42,855 nt of DNA from Treponema sp. (GTDB lineage Bacteria > Spirochaetota > Spirochaetia > Treponematales > Breznakiellaceae): the NCBI GenBank assembly GCA_003245635.1, contig QKCO01000019.1, positions 1-42,855 of the forward strand, written 5' to 3'. Below, in pieces: positions 1 to 25,332 of the stretch. The position numbers were made by a program, and so were the translations under genes. Under the pieces are notes generated by a model. That model was not told where the DNA came from and searched no databases. It saw only the letters and a list, made by a program, of their open reading frames with translations. The stretch's first letter is position 1; each line of letters starts with the position of its first letter.

Positions 1-834
1 ATCGCCGACCGGATTTTCGAGCGGCGCGATTCGGCCAAAGTCATCCTGATCGCGGGCCCTTCCAGCTCCGGCAAGACGACCACGGCGAAGCGGCTGTCGA
101 TCCACCTCAAGGTCATGGGGCTCGAGCCGGTCCAGGTGAGCCTGGACGACTACTACCTGGGCGTAGAGCGGACGCCCAAGGACGAGAACGGACAGCCCGA
201 CTTCGAATGCCTCGAGGCCCTCGACGTCCCCTACCTCAACGAGCAGCTGATCGAGCTGTTCAACGGGGAGGAGGTCGAACTGCCGATTTTCGACTTCAAG
301 ATCGGGGCGCGGCGGGACGGAGGCAGGAAGATCAAGCTCGGCAGGCGGTCGGTGCTCGTGGTCGAAGGCATCCACGGCCTTAACGAGAAGCTCACCGCGC
401 AGATCGAGCGCGACAAAAAGTTCAAGATCTACGTGTCCGCCCTCACGCAGCTCAACCTGGACGACCACAACCGCATCCCGACCAGCGACAGCCGTCTCCT
501 GCGCCGCATCGTGCGCGACTACCAGTTCCGCGGCAGCGCGGCGGCCAAGTCAATCAGCATGTGGCCGAGCGTCCAGGCCGGCGAGAAGAAGCACATCTTC
601 CCCTTCCAGGACGGCGCCGACGCCGCCTTCAACTCAGCGCTCGACTACGAGCTGTGCGTGCTGAAAGTCTACGCGGAGCCGCTCCTGCGCTCGGTGAAGC
701 CGACCATGGACGAATACGCCGAGGCGGCCCGGCTCCTGTCGTTCCTGGACAATTTCGCGCCGATTCCGCCGCAGTACGTGCCCGGGCAGTCGATCCTGCG
801 CGAATTCATTGGGGAGAGCGAGTTCAAGTACTGA
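1..834 (+). CDS. Uridine kinase-family nucleoside kinase (5' truncated)
   Basis: The open frame enters from the left edge, so only the C-terminal 277 residues are present. About 19 residues in is a P-loop (GPSSSGKTT), followed by SLDDYYLG and later VVEGIHGLN, all typical of the uridine kinase/phosphoribulokinase family. Such enzymes transfer phosphate from a nucleoside triphosphate to uridine or cytidine in pyrimidine salvage. Full-length spirochaete and Firmicute relatives often carry a TGS-like region upstream of the kinase domain; that part would lie outside the window. The 3' end converges on fliJ with an 11-base overlap of coding sequence. The family is clear, the exact substrate is not. 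Confidence 0.85.
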   Translation: MADRIFERRDSAKVILIAGPSSSGKTTTAKRLSIHLKVMGLEPVQVSLDDYYLGVERTPKDENGQPDFECLEALDVPYLNEQLIELFNGEEVELPIFDFKIGARRDGGRKIKLGRRSVLVVEGIHGLNEKLTAQIERDKKFKIYVSALTQLNLDDHNRIPTSDSRLLRRIVRDYQFRGSAAAKSISMWPSVQAGEKKHIFPFQDGADAAFNSALDYELCVLKVYAEPLLRSVKPTMDEYAEAARLLSFLDNFAPIPPQYVPGQSILREFIGESEFKY

Positions 835-24192: not shown

Positions 24193-24226
24193 TCCACTTT
24201 TTCCTATTTTTTCCCACTTTATCCCA
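24192..24226 (-). promoter_or_regulatory. MraZ operator: four 10-bp-spaced boxes
   Basis: On the minus strand TGGGA (24226-24222), TGGGA (24216-24212), TAGGA (24206-24202) and TGGAA (24196-24192), each separated by exactly 5 bases. Characterised MraZ operators are direct TGGGN repeats with 5-base spacers, so two boxes are exact and two degenerate. They follow the predicted transcription start and run over the Shine-Dalgarno into the ATG of mraZ. Confidence 0.8.
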
Positions 24227-24235
24227 CTAACTGAC

Positions 24236-24264
24236 ATTATTGACACGTAAAATTCTCACGTCAA
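24236..24264 (-). promoter_or_regulatory. Sigma70-type promoter of the mraZ-dcw operon
   Basis: Minus strand -35 TTGACG (24264-24259), 17-base spacer, -10 AATAAT (24241-24236): each hexamer matches 5 of 6. Predicted start is a few bases before the first MraZ box, so bound MraZ would block promoter clearance. Confidence 0.75.
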
Positions 24265-24383: not shown

Positions 24384-24629
24384 ATGCGCATCGACGACTT
24401 CTTCATCGTGTTTCCCGAAGGCGACGTACAGGAAATCTCCGGCAGGCTCAGGATCAATGCCCTGGTGGACTTGAACGGCAGCCCGCTCCGGCTGCCCCTG
24501 AGCGATCCGCACATCATCGCTTTCCGCGTGGACAGGGTATCCACCAAGGAGGGACGGGGCGGCAGCGAAACCTACCACTACCTCAGCCTCGTGAGCGCAG
24601 CCGAGCTGAGCGCCTATGCCCGCCGCTGA
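24384..24629 (+). CDS. Small conserved-looking protein of unknown function
   Basis: An 81-residue protein, MRIDDFFIVFPEGDV onward. Alternating hydrophobic residues (RINALVDLNGSPLRLPL, HIIAFRVDRVS) suggest a beta-rich fold; no signal peptide or membrane segment. The ATG at 24384 is chosen because upstream in-frame codons are AT-rich and overlap the mraZ promoter. It overlaps the next gene by 14 bases, so the two are probably made together. I do not recognise the family. It is divergent from mraZ. Confidence 0.7.
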   Translation: MRIDDFFIVFPEGDVQEISGRLRINALVDLNGSPLRLPLSDPHIIAFRVDRVSTKEGRGGSETYHYLSLVSAAELSAYARR

Positions 24630-25332
24630 AGGCATCGGCACCCGGAAGGAGAAGTCCCTCCACGCGGCCTTGAAGCAAAGATACGCGGGAAGCGGCGGCA
24701 GAACGGAAGCCGAAATCGGACCGTACGTCTGCGACGCCGTCGACCAGTACGGCGTCATCGTCGAGGTCCAAACAGGGAATTTCGGCGCGATAAAGCGAAA
24801 GCTCTCCGATCTGACAAAAAACGCGCGGGTCGTCCTCGTCCACCCCATTTCCGTCTCCCGCACCATCGAACTGAGGAGCATCGAAGGAGAGCTGATCCGC
24901 ACCCGAAAAAGCCCGCGGAAAGGGAAGCCGGCGGATATTTTCGCGCACTTGGTGCGGGCGCCGTACCTGCCGGCCTTGCCGGGCCTTGAAATCGAATTGG
25001 CGATGGTCGACGAAACGGAACTGAGGACGGACGACGGCGCCGGATCGTGGAGGAGGAAGGGAGTCAGCATCGTCGACCGCAAGCTGGACGCCGTCCGCGA
25101 AACGATCAGGCTTTCAGGCCCCGCCGATTACCGCCGATTCCTTCCCGACGCGTTGCCCGATCCGTTCACGTCGAAGGATCTCGCCGCGGCGCTTTCGGTG
25201 CGCGCCGAACTCGCGCGCAAAGCGCTTTTCGTCCTTTCGAGGCTCGGACTCGCAACAGATTGCGGAAAAAAGGGGAACGCGAAGCTCTACCGGAAAACGG
25301 CAGACAGGGAAACCGCGAGCGGGCGTGAATAG
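24616..25332 (+). CDS. Unknown protein: nuclease-like N-terminal domain plus winged helix
   Basis: A 238-residue protein I cannot assign to a named family. The N-terminal part shows Glu12 in KEKSLHAALK, Glu33, Asp40/Asp43 and GVIVEVQTGNF with Glu50-Val-Gln52, followed by the basic helix AIKRKL. This spacing recalls the PD-(D/E)XK nuclease core with an E-x-Q variant of the usual E-x-K. The C-terminal 55 residues (FTSKDLAAALSVRAELARKALFVLSRLGL ... KLYRKT) look like a winged-helix DNA-binding domain. A DNA-acting enzyme or regulator is inferred, not shown. It is translationally linked to the 24384 gene. Confidence 0.7.
   Translation: MPAAEGIGTRKEKSLHAALKQRYAGSGGRTEAEIGPYVCDAVDQYGVIVEVQTGNFGAIKRKLSDLTKNARVVLVHPISVSRTIELRSIEGELIRTRKSPRKGKPADIFAHLVRAPYLPALPGLEIELAMVDETELRTDDGAGSWRRKGVSIVDRKLDAVRETIRLSGPADYRRFLPDALPDPFTSKDLAAALSVRAELARKALFVLSRLGLATDCGKKGNAKLYRKTADRETASGRE

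Follow-up and report, generated by a model that had tools for sequence, protein, structure and literature searches.

A predicted nuclease-type core with a winged helix in a protein kept across the treponeme order, and its small spirochaete neighbour beside mraZ

The window analysed here is the whole stretch of 42,855 nucleotides from Treponema sp., one complete contig of a 2.5-Mb genome that is held in 182 contigs and is 82% complete. It contains two overlapping genes on the forward strand, here called SMALL and LARGE (Table 1), the second of which has a single copy in the genome. Divergent from SMALL on the upstream side lie mraZ, rsmH, ftsL, and a Mur ligase gene, while two flaA genes lie downstream and converge with LARGE. 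Pfam matched MraZ, MraW/RsmH, the Mur ligase, and both FlaA proteins among these neighbors, with FtsL falling just below the cut-off. An earlier note, made from the sequence alone, had described two overlapping genes divergent from the dcw side, and the open reading frames, their overlap, and the divergent mraZ were all confirmed.

Both genes have homologues that align along the whole length of their products. LARGE homologues were found in 46 of the 58 genomes searched (the window's own and 57 relatives); the closest shares 55% identity across 231 residues, and identity to the window's copy is 37-55% over the whole length across the loci of the f1 family. For SMALL, the corresponding whole-length identities are 48-65% (19 aligned sequences, the window's own counted). 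Identities in these ranges, sustained over the whole length, indicate that neither gene is a chance open reading frame. The aligned SMALL homologues start no more than two codons from the called ATG, and the TTG upstream at 24240 is therefore not the conserved start of this gene. A candidate fusion at another locus (L002) was rejected, as it proved to be an out-of-frame reading.

The 191 bp between mraZ and SMALL carry a sigma-70-like promoter and a TGGG-N6-TGGG repeat. The repeat (TGGGATAAAGTGGG), which resembles a MraZ box, sits just below the promoter, and similar TGGG repeats occur in 9 of the 25 corresponding intergenic regions of homologous loci. E. coli MraZ is reported to repress itself via such boxes (PMC8475190).

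Table 1. Positions of the genes, protein regions, and intergenic features at the SMALL-LARGE locus in the window.
Feature	Position	Strand	Basis
TGGG-N6-TGGG repeat TGGGATAAAGTGGG, MraZ-box-like	24213..24226	-	sole match in window; 0.85 expected by chance
Sigma-70-like mraZ promoter, TTGACG-17-AATAAT	24236..24264	-	consensus scan 10/12; 0.1 expected in region shuffles
SMALL, 81-aa beta-rich protein, spirochaete family	24384..24629	+	ATG start; alignment of 19; model
SMALL end/LARGE start overlap, 14 nt	24616..24629	+	coordinates
LARGE, 238-aa, predicted PD-(D/E)XK-type core and C-terminal winged helix	24616..25332	+	ATG start; homologues; model
LARGE residues 1-172, nuclease-like core (predicted) with extra beta strands	24616..25131	+	model; SfsA/YaeQ alignments 3-172
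LARGE residues 173-238, predicted winged helix spanning about 176-233	25132..25332	+	profile matches eS25, SmtB, TFE; fold matches

The window's LARGE matched nothing in Pfam or NCBIfam at E<=10. Its structural model, built from 32 sequences, has a mean pLDDT of 93.3 and a pTM of 0.87, with low confidence at residues 1-8 and 233-238. The core is modeled as a helix (14-24), three strands (29-34, 37-42, and 48-51), a second helix (56-66), and a further strand (72-87), all with pLDDT >90, after which two more long strands lead to the winged helix. This alpha-beta-beta-beta-alpha-beta succession is the usual order of elements in a PD-(D/E)XK core. The same region holds E12, E31, D40, E50-x-Q52, and K62, together with two conserved basic loops, RKSPKKG and GSWRRKG.

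In a second look at LARGE with VIA-align, SfsA and YaeQ entries were the only ones among the matches listed to align with the core. SfsA 4dap aligned with a Z of 7.3 and an rmsd of 3.1 across 114 residues (13..172), and YaeQ 3c0u, 2g3w, and 2ot9 with Z of 6.9, 6.5, and 6.3 across 112-114 residues; all of these lie below 8, where, according to the tool, a score can reflect a common arrangement. Foldseek against the PDB gave no match at E<=0.001, and YaeQ appeared with an E of 0.02 and a TM of 0.25-0.31. Foldseek against viral structures gave LARGE a single match at E<=0.001; this was a fragment of an AAA domain that aligned at an rmsd of 20, and it was distrusted.

Conservation was read from an alignment of 74 LARGE homologues, which come from the window's order, from other spirochaetes, and from beyond the phylum (eight genomes in a second phylum, one in a third). 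H16, K20, E31, D40, E50, Q52, and S99 are unchanged in all 74; D40 and E50, the acidic pair, lie on neighboring strands of the model. E12, just before the first helix, is kept in 73 (one gap), as is K62 (one R), on the helix that follows Q52. The third motif residue is Q in place of the usual K, and homologues read E(V/I)Q; BglII has ExQ. The motif also varies in Vsr, which has FxH (PMC1189080). Conservation of these residues across spirochaetes and two other phyla is as expected for an active site, and E12, D40, E50-x-Q52, and K62 form the putative active site of LARGE.

The C-terminal part of LARGE is a predicted winged helix of the ArsR/MarR/IclR type. Sequences of solved structures matched LARGE in this domain alone, with ribosomal eS25 the best at E 2.4e-4, and Pfam S25 matches 10 of 32 family members. 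Across the 32 homologues, Pfam, NCBIfam, PADLOC, and PHROGs returned mostly winged-helix matches, a few of them at E 1e-4 to 1e-5. The fold matches listed for the domain include many DNA-binding regulators and also the RNA-bound winged helices of SelB, and winged helices fill the list of VIA-align matches for the whole protein.

SMALL likewise matched nothing in Pfam or NCBIfam at E<=10. Its model has a mean pLDDT of 91.8 and four strands (3-9, 15-18, 47-57, and 60-69). Foldseek found nothing below an E of 0.29, VIA gave Z of at most 3.7 with matches that include N-terminal parts of glutamine synthetase and protein L, and the sequences of solved structures yielded nothing useful. SMALL is known only from the spirochaete phylum within the samples searched; two other phyla (199 and 200 genomes) gave 0 matches, an empty result that is uninformative according to the tool. 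Longer homologues of 114-118 aa occur in deep-branching relatives that have no LARGE (L097:5115-5459, L099:5227-5571, and L100:5355-5711), and the ones that were read have a tail rich in lysine. A CYTH-like gene adjoins all three, as identified by Pfam in L097 and L099 and by gene order in L100.

The structural expectations of the earlier note fared well. The acidic residues and the E-V-Q triad correspond to invariant or nearly invariant positions, profile and fold matches support the C-terminal winged helix, and the small protein is modeled as beta-rich. The proposed PD-(D/E)XK-like nuclease core is retained as a prediction, for which the modeled topology, the invariant residues, and the SfsA and YaeQ fold neighbors argue. 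The note had named a structure lacking such a core, or a clear match to a known housekeeping family, as results that would count against it; the structure prediction suggests a nuclease-type core, and Pfam and NCBIfam gave no named family for either protein.

The two genes differ in how widely they are distributed. LARGE is present in 78 of 296 sampled genomes of the phylum, comprising 72 of the 77 in the same order and 6 of the 219 outside it, where it is patchy. SMALL is present in 31 of the 296 (22/77 and 9/219, respectively). Beyond the spirochaetes, LARGE is likewise patchy, with matches in 10 of 249 genomes of the second phylum, two of them through the winged helix alone, and in 2 of 249 of the third, one through the winged helix alone. 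A 1.14-Mb genome (G044) retains LARGE with its conserved residues. Distances between LARGE proteins at 38 loci follow those between RsmH proteins, with a Mantel r of 0.73 that is partly due to the split between the f1 and f3 families and that none of 2000 permutations equaled.

The earlier note had also raised the possibility of a defence module. LARGE had no match in 72,556 plasmid records, in 50,697 phage records, or in viral contigs as scanned with two short patterns. PADLOC assigned the window's LARGE to no defence family at E<=0.1, and its matches in a few of the 32 family members were mostly to the regulators CasR, Csa3, and CARF, which are taken to reflect the shared winged helix. Defence is disfavored because LARGE is near-universal in the order, diverges there in step with RsmH, and is absent from these mobile-element collections. 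This pattern looks like that of a housekeeping enzyme passed on vertically, and not like that of a mobile module for defence.

Whether SMALL and LARGE form a two-gene cassette, as the note had proposed, can be judged from how often they travel together. Both are present in 20 of the 296 genomes, LARGE alone in 58, and SMALL alone in 11. In 13 of these 20 genomes (5 of the f1 family and 8 of f3, the 1.14-Mb genome among them) the genes are adjacent; in the other 7 (one f4 and six f5) they are on separate contigs. SMALL is immediately 5' of LARGE in 19 of the 25 f1 loci fetched, and every one of these 19 pairs has a spacing between -20 and +2 nt. Most f3 loci read have LARGE without SMALL divergent from mraZ (15 direct cases), and other lineages have SMALL without LARGE in that position (9 direct cases besides L119, and L094 in addition). 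Since either gene can occupy the mraZ side without the other, the cassette reading is weak. The expectation that the pair would be co-conserved largely failed, yet their co-occurrence does exceed chance (Fisher p 2.4e-6, uncorrected for relatedness). Ultimately, SMALL and LARGE are neighbors that are often, though not always, arranged as one transcript.

The surroundings of LARGE also change between lineages. In four genomes (G044, G160, G279, and G291) the SMALL-LARGE pair lies with flaA, and mraZ was unrecognised within the 10-11 kb read. The locus in the 1.14-Mb genome, probably that of Treponema pallidum (L082:3094-7372), reads flaA, flaA, LARGE, SMALL, and next a gene whose 555-aa product carries a uridine-kinase-type domain; the product of the window's first open reading frame (115-834) resembles this 555-aa protein. 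At f5 loci, the identified neighbors of LARGE are unrelated to division or flagella. Four loci of the second phylum (L136, L138, L140, and L141) have LARGE flanked by a metallo-beta-lactamase-fold gene on one side and a GHL10 gene on the other; in the last of these loci, the LARGE match is split across two open reading frames (genome G587). The neighbors scanned there were the metallo-beta-lactamase-fold protein, the GHL10 glycosyl hydrolase, NUDIX, and DUF6062, and a dnaX-ybaB-recR repair operon that had been guessed from gene lengths was rejected on these identities. No conserved repair-gene neighbor of LARGE was found among the loci read, and its neighbors vary outside the spirochaete order.

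LARGE is best explained, at about even confidence, as a housekeeping nucleic-acid endonuclease, with DNA a more likely substrate than RNA. It would be a chromosomal, vertically inherited, metal-dependent enzyme of the PD-(D/E)XK type that cuts at a site made up of E12, D40, E50, Q52, and K62. The winged helix and the two basic loops may grip a particular nucleic-acid structure, most likely in DNA, and the likeliest job of such an enzyme would be to process DNA intermediates during repair or recombination. SMALL would be a separate spirochaete protein that, in the f1 family, is probably carried on the same transcript as LARGE; it overlaps the LARGE start, and the two are therefore probably co-translated. 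SMALL may act with LARGE, perhaps in direct contact, but LARGE would not require it. Counted against this reading are the weak Foldseek matches, the VIA Z below 8, profile comparisons at the level of controls, the Q in place of K, the missing conserved repair-gene neighbor, and the likeness of the winged helix to eS25 and SelB, which makes RNA harder to set aside.

Several other explanations were weighed against this one. LARGE could be a transcription regulator whose winged helix binds promoters, such as those of mraZ/dcw or flaA, and whose nuclease fold serves only for binding or dimerisation. The winged-helix type would suit this role, as would the presence of LARGE in the mraZ-flaA interval across much of the order. 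However, the catalytic-type residues are kept (73-74 of 74) even where LARGE has left mraZ and flaA, and its f5 and second-phylum neighbors are unconnected to division or flagella; a pure regulator is less likely because the acidic residues are invariant, and this reading is judged unlikely. The nucleic acid handled might instead be RNA, with LARGE a ribonuclease of the PD-(D/E)XK fold, directed by a winged helix that binds RNA and active in the processing of RNA or the upkeep of ribosomes. In favor of RNA, the winged helix resembles those of eS25, its top profile match, and of SelB, but winged helices are generically alike, many of the matches listed are DNA-binding regulators, and no RNA-gene context was seen around LARGE, which leaves a ribonuclease quite improbable.

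A greater role for SMALL is proposed by two further explanations. SMALL could control LARGE as its partner in a two-component system (defence, toxin-antitoxin, or a regulated nuclease), and the tight spacing of the f1 pairs, the co-occurrence above chance, and the pairing in 8 f3 genomes (the four read in detail being those with no recognised mraZ nearby) are all consistent with it. Against this stand the 58 of 78 LARGE genomes that have no SMALL, the 11 of 31 SMALL genomes that have no LARGE, and the 7 of 20 in which the genes are on different contigs; defence matches are limited to regulators that share the winged helix, and the plasmid and phage records gave no match. A two-component system is accordingly considered very improbable. 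The slimmest chance is given to a broader scheme, in which LARGE would be a lineage-wide treponeme genome-maintenance nuclease that even a reduced 1.14-Mb genome retains, SMALL its spirochaete-specific cofactor, and the MraZ-controlled dcw promoter beside both a means of coupling DNA processing to division.

Should LARGE prove to be an active nuclease, the treponeme order would have a core enzyme for which Pfam and NCBIfam have no model and the literature searched has no publication. Organisms that in some cases have very small genomes would thereby gain a known chromosome-maintenance activity, and there would be a first way to approach SMALL, which is repeatedly found divergent from mraZ. Searches for the presumed locus names TP0665/TP0666 returned no paper, and a search on spirochaetes, flaA, and mraZ gave nothing on the SMALL-LARGE pair among the matches listed. 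DUF2161/COG5482 was likewise absent among the matches listed for DUF2161, COG5482, YaeQ, and EndoMS. The two genes do not represent a new kind of system and look like part of ordinary chromosome upkeep.

Among known families, three share features with LARGE and one offers a functional parallel. The parallel is EndoMS/NucS, which has a PD-(D/E)XK-type fold. It is described as a nuclease that chromosomes retain for repair; the parallel with LARGE is in proposed function alone, and neither sequence nor fold linked the two. YaeQ (PF07152), a member of the PD-(D/E)XK superfamily, is a fold neighbor of the LARGE core through the three entries described above. At about 180 aa, compared with 238 for LARGE, it has no room for a winged helix, and an hhalign comparison with the core (19 of 20 YaeQ sequences) scored 14.7, inside the control range.

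SfsA (PF03749) is the best fold neighbor of the core and has the same E..D..E motif order. It combines a PD-(D/E)XK nuclease-type domain with an N-terminal OB domain and an ExK motif (PMC1189080), whereas in LARGE the motif is ExQ and a winged helix is predicted at the C terminus. The first core helix of LARGE starts at residue 14, and an OB domain of the SfsA type is absent. Compared by profile, the core and SfsA (8 of 10 sequences) scored no higher than unrelated controls. Relatives of the window's genome encode an SfsA with a C-terminal DUF123 fusion, as identified by Pfam at L161:919-2127 (reverse strand), and similar frames were recognized by eye in L156, L160, L162, and L164.

Pfam PF09929 (DUF2161) is presumably the counterpart of COG5482. 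In a 2005 prediction, COG5482 is described as a protein of about 230 aa with an N-terminal PD-(D/E)XK core, a C-terminal winged helix, and the motif E-CD-ELK (PMC1189080). LARGE combines a core and a C-terminal winged helix within a similar length, and its motif reads E-(C/V)D-E(V/I)Q. PF09929 did not match the window's LARGE at E<=10 and was not among the 25 of 28 families shown for the 32 homologues. In hhalign, LARGE scored 21.2 against DUF2161 (12 of 14 sequences, two missed by the motif search being dropped), compared with at most 20.6 for 40 column shuffles and 16.2 for five other families; the match is not significant alone (E 0.022 in a single comparison, with a probability of 2%), and the score was 17.4 when most of the 14 sequences had badly chosen starts. 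In the profile alignment, E12, D40, and E50 of LARGE fall on the E, D, and E of DUF2161. As a sign of relationship, this is suggestive but not significant. LARGE is an undescribed family, without a Pfam or NCBIfam model, in a known superfamily and with a known architecture, to which the closest described counterpart is COG5482.
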